DNA of 23,190 nt from a virus. The notes below the pieces were generated by a model. It was not told the origin of the DNA, ran no database searches, and saw nothing but the letters and a program-made list of their open reading frames with translations. Positions 7,568-11,141 of the stretch are shown here, one piece after another. Each line of letters begins with the position of its first letter. Position 1 is the first letter of the stretch. A program made the position numbers and the translations under genes. The stretch covers positions 1-23,190 of the IMG/VR virus record IMGVR_UViG_3300007229_000094; one strand, given 5' to 3'.

Positions 7568-7780
7568 ATGAATATCTTTAAAGACGATAACGACTGGAAT
7601 GAAAAGGCTATTGTAGGCTTTGTAGCTTTTGCTATCATGTGCCTTATAATGATAGCTGACCTAACAGCGGTATGGTTTGGTAAAGACTTTATGATAAACG
7701 AGCACGTATACGACTCCTTCGTTTGGGTTGTGTTGGGCTCGTTTGGTATTTCTGGGGTAGAAAAATTCTCAAAGAAATAA
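7568..7780 (+). CDS. Two-TM holin candidate
   Basis: The product is 70 residues. It starts MNIFKDDNDWNEKA, then has a hydrophobic segment at about 15-36 (IVGFVAFAIMCLIMIADLTA), a short polar loop with KDFMINEHVYD, a second hydrophobic segment at about 50-62 (FVWVVLGSFGISG), and ends EKFSKK. Small size, two membrane segments and a basic tail fit a holin or a holin-like small membrane protein, and the genes downstream include an M15 peptidase and a 3-TM holin. It starts four bases after the previous stop, and its own stop overlaps the next start (TAATG). A pore-forming role is inferred from architecture and context only. Confidence 0.6.
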   Translation: MNIFKDDNDWNEKAIVGFVAFAIMCLIMIADLTAVWFGKDFMINEHVYDSFVWVVLGSFGISGVEKFSKK

Positions 7781-8064
7781 TGGCTAAGGCGATACGAAAA
7801 ACAACAACAGGTAAAGGTGCTAACTACAGACCTACTAAGTCTGGAGCTGGTATGACTAAGAAAGGAGTTGCTGCTTACAGGCGTGCAAATCCTGGTAGTA
7901 AGTTGAAGACTGCTGTTACAGAAAGTAAACCTACAGGAAAAAGAGCAGGAAGGAGAAAATCCTACTGTGCTAGATCTTTAGGTCAGTTAAAAAGAAGTAG
8001 TCAGAAGACTCAGAACGATCCTAACTCAAGGATACGCCAAGCAAGGCGAAGATGGAAATGCTAA
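7780..8064 (+). CDS. Small basic protein ending in RRRWKC
   Basis: The product is 94 residues. The start overlaps the previous stop (TAATG at 7778-7782). Recognisable elements are YRPTKSGAGMTKKGVAAYRR, PGSKLKTAVT, then RRKSYCARSLGQLKR and a close in DPNSRIRQARRRWKC. This KSxCARSxGQ ... DPNSR...RRRWKC pattern is shared by small basic proteins of many marine tailed phages and some large eukaryotic viruses. I recall it under domain-of-unknown-function labels. The two conserved cysteines (in YCARS and at the C-terminus) could bind metal or form a disulfide. It may be a packaged basic protein; its place inside the lysis-type cassette is notable. Function unknown. Confidence 0.75.
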   Translation: MAKAIRKTTTGKGANYRPTKSGAGMTKKGVAAYRRANPGSKLKTAVTESKPTGKRAGRRKSYCARSLGQLKRSSQKTQNDPNSRIRQARRRWKC

Positions 8065-8080
8065 GAAAAACAATGTAATA

Positions 8081-8359
8081 ATGGGATTAAAGATTAATGA
8101 GAGTACAAATATAAGCTTTGACTTAAAAAGCTTAGGAGTAATGGCGGTAGGCTTATCCATCATAATAGGAATGTGGTTTACGCTACAAAACGATATAGCT
8201 GAGGCTAAAGAATTGCCAAGGCCTTTAGATCCTGTAATTACAAGGATGGAGTTCGACATGAAGGATCAACTTATTAGGCAGACTATTATGTCTACTCAAG
8301 AAGACGTTCAAGAAATTAAAGATGATATTAAACTTATTAAGGAGAAGTTATATGAGTAG
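8081..8359 (+). CDS. Single-TM coiled-coil protein of the lysis cassette
   Basis: The product is 92 residues. A short polar N-terminus with FDLK is followed by one membrane segment at about 17-35 (LGVMAVGLSIIIGMWFTL) and a charged C-terminal helix (STQEDVQEIKDDIKLIKEKL) predicted by eye to be a coiled coil. It resembles the minus-strand protein at 1053-1376 in order and in the FDLK...WFTL frame, but lacks that protein's RIKWPRGE stretch. One TM plus a long coiled coil, between a holin candidate and an endolysin-type gene, fits an inner-membrane spanin-like or a holin-regulating protein; this is inference. Its last eight bases overlap the thioredoxin-like gene. Confidence 0.65.
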   Translation: MGLKINESTNISFDLKSLGVMAVGLSIIIGMWFTLQNDIAEAKELPRPLDPVITRMEFDMKDQLIRQTIMSTQEDVQEIKDDIKLIKEKLYE

Positions 8360-8708
8360 AATTTTTCTTTTCTTATTATTTTTAATCCCGTTAAACCTAA
8401 AGGGTCAATCCTCTATAGGGGTTGAGAACTTTGACTGGGAAATAAGAAGGGGGGTTGTTGCGGTAGAGTTTTGGGCAGGATGGAATAGAGGAAACGAAAT
8501 ACTATTTATGCACGAGCTAACAAACTGTAGAGCTTACAGACACATAATAAGAAGGGACGCATCCTTACTAGAAAGATATAAAATAACCTCAGCACCTACG
8601 ATTATAATATTTAAAAACGGTGAGGAGGAGTTTAGGTTTGCACCTAACATAATGCTTAAAGTAACAGCAACAAAAAATCAAGTACAATCAGCAATAAACG
8701 AACTTTAA
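8352..8708 (+). CDS. Secreted thioredoxin-fold protein lacking the CxxC
   Basis: The product is 118 residues. Residues 1-18 are a signal peptide (RIFLFLLFLIPLNLKG) with a likely cut before QSS, as is usual in flavobacteria. The mature part follows the thioredoxin order: VVAVEFWAGWNRGNEIL (beta strand plus the active-site loop), a helix, NCRAYRHIIRRDASLLERYKI, then SAPTIIIFKNGEEEFRF with the cis-proline and the last strands. The active-site WCxxC is replaced by WNRGN, so there is no redox cysteine pair; one Cys remains at NCRAY. It should act in the periplasm as a non-redox binding or folding protein. I chose the ATG at 8352 because it gives the signal peptide; upstream in-frame codons do not. 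Related cysteine-less versions occur in marine phage data as far as I recall. Confidence 0.75.
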   Translation: MSRIFLFLLFLIPLNLKGQSSIGVENFDWEIRRGVVAVEFWAGWNRGNEILFMHELTNCRAYRHIIRRDASLLERYKITSAPTIIIFKNGEEEFRFAPNIMLKVTATKNQVQSAINEL

Positions 8709-8718
8709 TTAAACTAAA

Positions 8719-9174
8719 ATGAAACTAAGTAAAAACTTTTCTTTACTAGAGGTGACACGCAGTAGTACTGCTAAAAGAATAGGTATAGACAATGCACCGA
8801 ATAAAGAACATCTTAACAACATTCAGGCTCTTATTAGAAAAATCGTGCAGCCTTTGCGAGATGCTATCGGTCCTATTCGCATTAGCTCTGGTTATCGTAG
8901 CCCTGAACTCAATCGTGCCATTGGTGGTAGTAACAAAAGCCAGCATTGTAAAGGTCAAGCTTTGGATCTGCAGTTTTGGGAAGGAGGAGAAATGAATAAT
9001 AAGAAGATTTACGACTGGATACTATCTAGTGGTATAGACTTCGATCAAATGATTAACGAGTTTGACTACTCTTGGATACACATATCTTTTAACGAGTTTA
9101 AAAACAGAAAGCAGGTCCTTGAGGCTTACAAAGACGAAGACGGAGATACTAGATATAAATACGCTGAAGTGTAA
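8719..9174 (+). CDS. M15-family peptidase (endolysin-type)
   Basis: The product is 151 residues, the usual size for the phage Peptidase_M15_3-type D-Ala-D-Ala carboxypeptidase/endopeptidase domain alone. Zinc ligands fit: SQHCKGQALD gives His76 and Asp83 (SxHxxGxAxD), and SWIHISF gives His121. RISSGYRSPELNRAIGG upstream is the conserved SGYRS element. It cleaves peptide cross-links of peptidoglycan. There is no signal peptide, so it needs a holin to reach the wall. Its stop overlaps the start of the 3-TM holin (TAATG). It is the likely lysis enzyme, though virion-bound wall-piercing use is possible. Confidence 0.9.
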   Translation: MKLSKNFSLLEVTRSSTAKRIGIDNAPNKEHLNNIQALIRKIVQPLRDAIGPIRISSGYRSPELNRAIGGSNKSQHCKGQALDLQFWEGGEMNNKKIYDWILSSGIDFDQMINEFDYSWIHISFNEFKNRKQVLEAYKDEDGDTRYKYAEV

Positions 9175-9560
9175 TGAGTAAGCTACTAGACATATTAGGT
9201 GGAGGGGTAGTAAAGCAGGTTGGTGATGTTTTAGATAAGCTAACAACAACTAAAGAAGAGAAGCTTGCTGCACAACGAAAGATAGAAGAAGTTTTATTGA
9301 AAGCAGAAAGCCAAGCTCAACAGCAAGTTACTAGACGCTGGGAGGCTGATATGAAGTCTGACAACTGGCTTTCTAAAAACATTAGACCCCTTATCTGTAT
9401 ATTTTTAACTGTAATTTTTGTAGTTTTGTCAATGTTTGATGGTAACGTAGGAGGATTTGTTATTCAAGAAACGTACGTTCCAATATATCAAACGTTATTA
9501 ATAACAGTATACGGGGCTTACTTTGCGGGTAGGTCTATCGAGAAAATAAAAAAGAAGTAA
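9174..9560 (+). CDS. 3-TM-type holin (GTA_holin_3TM-like)
   Basis: The product is 128 residues. An N-terminal amphipathic helix (LLDILGGGVVKQVGDVLDKL) is followed by a charged coiled region with QQQVTRRWEADMKSDNWLSK, then KNIRPLICIFLTVIFVVLSMF (membrane segment about 69-88) and a second hydrophobic stretch YQTLLITVYGAYFAGRSIEK near the end. The order 'W-ADM-SD-WLSKN-RP' before the first membrane segment is the hallmark of the holin family named for three TMs in gene transfer agents. It directly follows the M15 peptidase with a one-base overlap, which supports a lysis pair. The other small membrane genes at 7568 and 8081 make this a multi-component cassette. Confidence 0.8.
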   Translation: MSKLLDILGGGVVKQVGDVLDKLTTTKEEKLAAQRKIEEVLLKAESQAQQQVTRRWEADMKSDNWLSKNIRPLICIFLTVIFVVLSMFDGNVGGFVIQETYVPIYQTLLITVYGAYFAGRSIEKIKKK

Positions 9561-9563
9561 ACA

Positions 9564-11141
9564 ATGAGCTCATTAAAAGGTAAAACAATATCAAGGACAT
9601 ATCAGAAGTTAATTCAGTCTGATAACGAAATAACTGACGGTACTTTAAAGCAGGTTAGTACAGGTAATGGAACGCCTACGGCTATGAAGCTTTCTACTAA
9701 TAAAGCTGAGTTTCAGCAATTAGGTGTTGGTACTGATGGTGTAACTCCAGATGGTTTACTTCACGTATTATCTGTAAGTGCAGGGGCTGTAACAGCTAGT
9801 TCTTTTGCTAACCAGTTAACTTTAGAAAACTCTGGAGACGCAGGTCTTTCTATACTTTCTGGAGCTTCTAGTTTTGGTCATATATATTTTGGTGATGCTA
9901 ACGATAATGATGTAGGTGGTATATCTTACGATCACTCTAACGACGCAATGAATTTTACCGTCGATGGGTCTCAGTCTATGAATCTTGATAAGTCAGGAAA
10001 CTTAACTATTGGTGGTACTTTAAGTGAGTCTGAAGACAGGTATACTCTTATAGAAAATTTCAACGAAATTCCTTATCACGACATTGGTCACCCAGACTCA
10101 GAAGTAACTCAGTCTACTAGCGGAACTACTGCGGTTGTAAATAACACTAAATATACTAGAATTACGACGGCTACCATTGACCTAGCTGCATCTGACTCTG
10201 TAGAGTTTACATTTACTAATGATATGATAGAGCAAAATTCTCACGTTTTAGCGTATTTTGTAAACTCAAGTGGGACTATAGCAGATAATGCTATGTTAGA
10301 TATTATGGTTCATGACGTTCAAGACTCTAGTTGTAAAATACGATTAAGTACCAACGCTGTAGATATAGCGTCTCAAACATATTTAATTCATGTTACTGTA
10401 GACCCACACATACCTTCTAATTACAACTGGGTTAGAGGTGGAATAAACAGCGAAGGACCTACAAGAATAACTTACTCAGAAGGTGGTATAGAGTTAAGCA
10501 CTCTAAGTTCTGATAATGATCAAACATTAATAACTCCAAGAAACTCAAACAACAGTATATTTGACGGAGGGTTTCATGCTGCATATCAAGGAATTAGCAG
10601 TTGGGAAAGTAATTTTACTGATCCATCGTCGAATGAAACTACGTTAAAAGTACCAATAACGACTGTAGATTCCCTTGACATTACAAACGTGGCAATTTGT
10701 ACTGGATGGAAGAGAAAACCTATATCTGGGGATTTTAATGAAGATTACGCAACTGACACATCTCAAGCTTATTTTTTATACGCTACAAACGACGACTTTG
10801 GAACTTTAACCAACCATACTAATTTGCATTTTGTGCATTCTACAGGGGGGGTTGACTATGTTACCAACTTAGGAATTACTATCGAGGCTGCTACTAATTA
10901 TAATTTAGAAATAAGGTTTGATGAAAACAAAAAAGTTTCTGCTTTTGTTAATGGGGTCCAGTATGGATTAACCAACACCCCCACAACCACAACTGCAGGA
11001 GGTGTTACAGAACCTAACTCGACTCAAAAAAGTATATCAGGAGACGTAATAGGTCAACTTCCCGTTGTTTGCGTTACCACTTTAAGTGCCACTTCTAAAA
11101 AACTAAAAGTTCACTTTATAAAAGCATCAAGAAAGTTTTAA
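9564..11141 (+). CDS. Fibre-like structural protein with lectin-like C-terminal half
   Basis: The product is 525 residues. Residues 1-60 (KGKTISRTYQKLIQSDNEIT, TPTAMKLSTNKAEF) are a virion-attachment part seen in marine phage fibres. Residues about 85-152 have the repeat-like GHIYFGDANDNDVGGISYDH and NLDKSGNLTIGGTL motifs. Residues about 160-525 are beta-rich and resemble concanavalin A/LamG-type sandwiches: QAYFLYATNDDFGTL, HFVHSTGGVDYVTNLG, then FDENKKVSAFVNGVQYGL. Sugar binding is inferred from fold resemblance. It lies on the plus strand next to TerS/TerL, far from the minus-strand fibre operon, so it could be a head fibre or a second tail fibre. It has no signal peptide or catalytic motif. 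Confidence 0.75.
   Translation: MSSLKGKTISRTYQKLIQSDNEITDGTLKQVSTGNGTPTAMKLSTNKAEFQQLGVGTDGVTPDGLLHVLSVSAGAVTASSFANQLTLENSGDAGLSILSGASSFGHIYFGDANDNDVGGISYDHSNDAMNFTVDGSQSMNLDKSGNLTIGGTLSESEDRYTLIENFNEIPYHDIGHPDSEVTQSTSGTTAVVNNTKYTRITTATIDLAASDSVEFTFTNDMIEQNSHVLAYFVNSSGTIADNAMLDIMVHDVQDSSCKIRLSTNAVDIASQTYLIHVTVDPHIPSNYNWVRGGINSEGPTRITYSEGGIELSTLSSDNDQTLITPRNSNNSIFDGGFHAAYQGISSWESNFTDPSSNETTLKVPITTVDSLDITNVAICTGWKRKPISGDFNEDYATDTSQAYFLYATNDDFGTLTNHTNLHFVHSTGGVDYVTNLGITIEAATNYNLEIRFDENKKVSAFVNGVQYGLTNTPTTTTAGGVTEPNSTQKSISGDVIGQLPVVCVTTLSATSKKLKVHFIKASRKF

Follow-up and report, generated by a model that had tools for sequence, protein, structure and literature searches.

The stretch of viral DNA analysed here (IMG/VR record IMGVR_UViG_3300007229_000094, positions 1 to 23,190, further referred to as the window) raises the question of what a phage gains from a secreted protein with the thioredoxin fold and without the redox cysteines. 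The gene encoding it is referred to as gene 1, and the gene overlapping its start as gene 0; their coordinates are given in Table 1. An earlier reading of the letters without database searches (the sequence-only reading) had suggested a binding role in lysis, lysis timing or superinfection exclusion. Comparison of the relatives indicates that the gene 1 product looks like a conserved binding part, not a decayed enzyme, and the proposed binding role seems likely. Our preferred explanation, with a probability of about 0.5, is that the protein acts as a periplasmic docking adaptor in a phage-made trans-envelope complex, its groove being seated on a segment of gene 0.

Gene 1 and its predicted fold

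The reading frame starts with the ATG at 8352 and terminates with the stop codon at 8706–8708; a gap of 7 nt separates the ATG from a Shine-Dalgarno-like AAGGAG. The product consists of the signal peptide MSRIFLFLLFLIPLNLKGQ followed by VEFWAGWNRGN and then by SAPTIIIF. The codons of Asn45, Asn48 and cis-Pro82 are located at 8484–8486, 8493–8495 and 8595–8597, respectively. Cys59, the sole cysteine of the mature protein in the window, is kept in 120 of 136 distinct family sequences. Signal peptides of the family end in ..(A/G)Q and have no lipobox Cys, as judged by eye from the alignments. The signal sequence bears out the earlier claim that the protein is secreted.

The AlphaFold (AF2) model, for which 29 relatives served as input, has the thioredoxin fold with a predicted local distance difference test score (pLDDT) of 87 and a predicted template modelling score (pTM) of 0.78. 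Nearly all of its top PDB matches are thioredoxins or thioredoxin domains, with template modelling scores (TM-scores, by query length) of about 0.6–0.7. The fold anticipated from sequence is thus supported by structure prediction; the cis state of Pro82 is taken from the alignment. In profile searches the window protein matches PF00085 with E = 3e-4 and 21.0 bits, under the gathering cut-off of 23.5, and most tested relatives pass it with 25.4–38.1 bits (two at 38.1 and 36.2). For TIGR01068 it has 25.6 bits (E = 1e-5), far under the equivalog cut-off of 96.8, and the top score among the tested relatives is 43.8 bits. A sequence search against PDB thioredoxins yielded E = 5e-5. Judged by these scores, the thioredoxin kinship is real, and weak for the window member taken alone.

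Residues E39 and R63 correspond to D26 and K57 of thioredoxin. They covary: among the 136 distinct sequences, R or K at position 63 is observed in 104 of 107 with E39 versus 10 of 29 without it. The family resembles thioredoxin (PF00085, TIGR01068/TrxA) in the fold, strand order, FWAxW region, cis-Pro-Thr and this acid-base pair, whereas it differs in having NxxN throughout, a Sec signal peptide and, always, a membrane coiled-coil partner.

Conservation and origin of the NxxN motif

Relatives of gene 1 were collected as a close set, a distant set in which identity falls to about 31%, and the best 80 of 212 matches from a wider scan. NxxN was found in all relatives from these scans. In the 136 distinct sequences N45, the cis-Pro and Thr83 are each present in 136, and N48 in 135, with Lys in the remaining one; hence the invariance of the Asn pair is on par with that of the cis-Pro. 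Trp41 and Trp44 are variable, Asn/Tyr and Phe being seen as replacements. Pooling of the distinct gene 0/gene 1 pairs from IMG/VR gave 188 NxxN, one NxxK and no CxxC among 189. The sequence-only reading, which had described WNRGN in place of WCxxC and had regarded CxxC homologues as a sign of simple loss, agrees with these counts.

For motif-blind sampling, two extra scans were keyed on gene 0 alone, giving at least 555 and at least 590 relatives. They likewise show NxxN, which argues against a search bias toward the motif. The best 80 loci were taken from each of these and the other scans; some contigs are common to several samples, which are not fully independent.

All 87 thioredoxin matches on bacterial genome contigs are of the CxxC type. 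On a tree built with the motif masked, a single branch with approximate likelihood-ratio test (aLRT) support of 97, computed from few columns, separates NxxN from CxxC proteins, and the nearest outgroup of the NxxN family is formed by cellular CxxC thioredoxins. The ratio of nonsynonymous to synonymous substitution rates (dN/dS) of gene 1 is about 0.06–0.18, mostly near 0.1, for window-type relatives, one near-identical pair excepted. Such values point to strong purifying selection and, together with NxxN in 188 of 189 pairs, rule out a simple loss in one phage. We propose that redox chemistry was lost once, long ago, in the ancestry of this family.

When gene 1, gene 0 and the barrel protein described below served as tblastn queries against INPHARED phages, ordinary thioredoxins or chance-level matches were all that came up. 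A membrane-anchored WCVPC thioredoxin, clustering with the cellular ones, is encoded by the 5' open reading frame (ORF; 79–564) of the single-stranded RNA phage SRR5466337_2 (L020, NC_073930.1); either the gene was acquired or the assembly is chimeric.

Gene 0 is the obligate partner of gene 1

Gene 0 lies directly 5' of gene 1 in 64 of the 65 loci selected by thioredoxin. Conversely, gene 1 is the next gene in 75 of 76 loci of the first gene 0-selected sample. In the second such sample it is adjacent in 69 of 76 and one to two genes further on in the other seven, that is, present in all 76. Gene 0 is thus a real, obligate partner, and the position of gene 1 between a coiled-coil membrane protein and an endolysin, noticed earlier, is as described. 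The charge difference between the flanks of the transmembrane segment, a weak indicator of topology, favours the N-in/C-out orientation in 78 of 88 members. A disulfide between Cys59 of gene 1 and gene 0 is ruled out, as gene 0 is free of cysteines in 189 of 189 pairs. We also searched for gene 0 in the family to which a metagenome-assembled genome named Flavobacteriaceae belongs (399 genomes). Only weak matches were obtained, mostly inside long ORFs, and we attribute them to chance similarity of coiled coils.

In loci L081, L093, L111, L313, L320, L322 and L347 a small DUF2279-like or predicted periplasmic lipoprotein is inserted between gene 0 and gene 1. The second type of gene 0, represented by the minus-strand paralogue of the window and its relatives, has WPRGEMGALPDDAKQDL; in the relatives it often separates the M15 gene from gene 1. 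A gene 0 homologue at L045:7305–7982 has an extra N-terminal region (KIGEILVQKGYVTQQQVDG, by eye like the N-domains of type II secretion ATPases) and a poly-proline linker; the host of L045 may not belong to Bacteroidota.

Outer-membrane barrel and type IX secretion cargo

A barrel-like protein of about 350 aa (cluster 3; for example, L107:4321–5376) occurs with 155 of the 189 distinct pairs, and in the wider sample its gene is directly 5' of the pair in 54 of 69 loci. The model comprises about 12 long strands (pLDDT 74), and every PDB match listed for it is an outer-membrane barrel, at a low TM-score. The family has no matches above cut-off in Pfam, NCBIfam or PHROG and no match to the PorP/SprF family. 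Evolutionary distances of gene 1 and the barrel correlate with r of 0.81 (partial correlation 0.66 given gene 0). They track each other closer than the gene 1 distances track those of gene 0, which fits a contact with the barrel but may stem from noise, gene 0 being short.

In many distant relatives the barrel gene is preceded by a gene for a protein with a type IX secretion system (T9SS) sorting domain. Two curated models recognize these domains, namely TIGR04183 (cut-off 23) with 47.3 and 31.8 bits, and PF18962; a pattern search finds them in 28 of 53 loci. Examples are L251:17–1957 and L263:125–730 and 727–1962; in many loci such genes are located 5' of gene 0. The proteins are apparently exported by the T9SS of the host. 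Suggestive tails seen by eye on clusters 8 and 13 from nearer relatives had no match to the curated models and were rejected. Anchoring of T9SS cargo of the SprB/SprF and PorP-like kind is described in PMC9143113. The phage loci resemble the systems described there in that, in many relatives, the cargo gene adjoins an outer-membrane barrel gene. They differ in being phage-encoded, in having type A sorting domains and in the addition of inner-membrane and thioredoxin parts.

Phages and hosts

The window terminase resembles those of Flavobacterium elemoviruses and of Cellulophaga and Maribacter phages, the best of which reaches about 37%, and that of a 60.8-kb podovirus (47%). This likeness and the T9SS domains point to Bacteroidota hosts; the carriers are many uncultured marine phages, most likely of this phylum. 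The pair was found in contigs of 119–173 kb having a contractile-sheath gene (6 of 20 tested), as well as on contigs with a window-type terminase. Hence it crosses phage lineages and, as these marker genes indicate, is common to contractile-tailed and podovirus-like phages. No recognisable pair is located near the terminase in three inspected relatives by terminase large subunit (TerL), namely MW202828, Maribacter phage Panino and an elemovirus.

Proposed mechanism and alternatives

From the predicted fold, the invariance of the motif, the pairing with gene 0 and the linkage to barrel and cargo genes we infer the localisation, contacts and purpose of the module as follows. The gene 1 product, given its signal sequence, would be exported by Sec to the periplasm. 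Although redox-dead, it would retain the substrate groove of thioredoxin as a binding site made of the Asn pair, the cis-Pro and the buried acid-base pair. This groove would dock on gene 0 at its invariant RxE[FY]xMKDxxxR segment. Together the two proteins would build the half of a trans-envelope complex that lies in the inner membrane and the periplasm; the other, outer half would in most relatives be the phage beta-barrel, T9SS cargo often being encoded just 5' of it.

Use of the fold as a scaffold has precedents in redox-inactive binders such as E. coli TrxA (the processivity factor of T7 polymerase), ERp29 and calsequestrin. These too exploit the fold and not catalysis; the gene 1 product differs from them in being phage-encoded and, by its signal peptide, periplasmic, and in its strict Asn pair and its links to an inner-membrane anchor and a barrel.

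Several points weigh against the docking-adaptor explanation. The interaction of gene 1 with gene 0 is a proposal, and the topology of gene 0 is only weakly determined. The correlation of gene 0 and gene 1 distances given the barrel is weak (0.21), which may reflect noise, gene 0 being short. The low TM-scores of the barrel model support the fold class alone. Finally, the barrel is absent in 17 of 17 contigs of the window's own clade, including those of 61.5 and 64.7 kb (positive control 6 of 6), and therefore is not essential to the pair.

As cargo and barrel are surface parts, we lean slightly toward remodelling of the envelope or surface (superinfection exclusion or receptor masking) over disruption of the outer membrane at lysis. 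In the former case the pair, the barrel and the T9SS cargo would change the envelope so that later phages cannot adsorb or inject. All parts of the module are predicted to belong to the envelope, the barrel and cargo being frequent, and the module is kept in unrelated phage lineages. Imm (inner membrane) and Sp (periplasmic) of T4 are a functional precedent for an exclusion pair; they are alike by description, not by sequence, in combining one small inner-membrane and one small periplasmic phage protein, whereas the thioredoxin fold, barrel and T9SS cargo belong to the present module only. However, the window pair has structural genes on one side and lysis genes on the other, a position at which expression should be late, and exclusion genes are usually early; besides, the window clade lacks the barrel. 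We consider exclusion as a full explanation possible, if on the unlikely side.

A spanin-like lysis role, to which the gene context in the window lends weight, is the main rival: gene 0 would resemble an i-spanin and gene 1 would be its periplasmic partner, the outer membrane being disrupted after the action of holin and endolysin. As in lambda Rz/Rz1, the genes overlap, the putative inner-membrane protein combines a transmembrane segment with a coiled coil, and endolysin and holin genes are near in the window. For Bacteroidetes phages exclusively unimolecular spanins are reported, and none of the classical two-component type (PMC12596118), and 91 of 677 surveyed phages had no recognisable spanin (PMC6139136), which makes an unrecognised solution plausible. 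On the other hand, gene 1 has no lipobox and hence is not an outer-membrane lipoprotein, its globular thioredoxin fold is foreign to Rz/Rz1, and gene 0 of the window extends for only about 55 aa past its transmembrane segment. The lysis cassette seen by the sequence-only reading holds for the window and its near relatives, with the M15 gene or the three-transmembrane holin gene at most five genes away in 48 of 63 thioredoxin-selected loci. It is inconsistent across the wider family, where M15 is within 5 kb in 17 of 67 loci and the holin in 15 of 67, other endolysin families not having been searched; the obligate link is to gene 0. A lysis role of the pair is possible without being particularly favoured, and its spanin-like form appears doubtful. 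The antiholin-like timing suggested by a small secreted protein beside holin and endolysin, in which gene 1 would bind the holin on its periplasmic side and delay its triggering, seems improbable, given the same scarcity of the holin in the wider sample and the constant presence of gene 0. T4 RI is a known secreted antiholin. Scarcely less improbable is a dominant-negative decoy that would engage periplasmic thioredoxin partners of the host (DsbD-like, TlpA-like), or their substrates, without turnover. Retention of the groove residues with both cysteines gone would suit it, and neither the barrel link nor the obligate association with gene 0 would be explained. A plain degenerate gene whose function is gone agrees with the cellular CxxC outgroup, but is contradicted by the evidence for selection and by the conserved operon, and we regard it as very improbable.

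Extending the docking-adaptor explanation, we tentatively suggest a trans-envelope machine of marine Bacteroidota phages, made of a T9SS-exported surface protein, the barrel, the NxxN adaptor and the inner-membrane anchor, and spread across unrelated tailed-phage lineages. If this is true, a catalytic fold became, on one occasion, a fixed module for binding, which hundreds of marine phages with different tail types have retained. It would constitute an unrecognised envelope module in Bacteroidota phages, whose mechanisms of outer-membrane lysis and exclusion are poorly known. Moreover, phages would export proteins via the host type IX system, and the machine as a whole would be a takeover of the host envelope of a kind not described before. 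Literature searches found no description of the gene 0/gene 1 pair. The gene 1 protein itself adds a variant to an established family of folds, and the novelty of the module may go further.

Features of the window and neighbouring genes

Table 1. Features of the window discussed in the text
Feature	Coordinates	Strand	Evidence and remarks
Gene 0 paralogue with another tail (WPRGEMGALPDD)	1053–1397	−	Cluster 0 member; phrog_20984; no thioredoxin gene beside it
Gene 0, inner-membrane coiled-coil protein with a single transmembrane segment, 92 aa	8081–8359	+	8-nt overlap with gene 1; obligate partner
Transmembrane segment of gene 0	8132–8185	+	Hydrophobic segment; flank charges
Conserved stretch TRMEFDMKDQLIR in gene 0, putative docking site	8240–8278	+	RxE[FY]xMKDxxxR-type motif in 189/189
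Shine-Dalgarno-like AAGGAG	8339–8344	+	Sequence; within the 3' end of gene 0
Gene 1, NxxN thioredoxin-fold protein with Sec signal peptide, 118 aa	8352–8708	+	Sequence, profile searches, AlphaFold model, alignments
Asn-Arg-Gly-Asn (codons 45–48) in the place of Cys-x-x-Cys	8484–8495	+	N45 in 136/136, N48 in 135/136 members
cis-Pro82-Thr83 of gene 1	8595–8600	+	Each in 136/136 distinct members
M15 peptidase endolysin, no signal peptide	8719–9174	+	PF08291, 64.6 bits; phrog_894
Holin with three transmembrane segments, gene transfer agent (GTA)-type	9174–9560	+	PF11351; phrog_3427

An Arg/Lys-rich DUF6321 protein (KSYCARSLGQ) is encoded 5' of the pair at 7780–8064 and recurs in many loci. In MW202828.1 (L282), the nearest TerL relative, the place that the pair has in the window, directly before the M15 gene, is taken by a gene (9365–9988) for a 207-aa transmembrane protein with DTI repeats.
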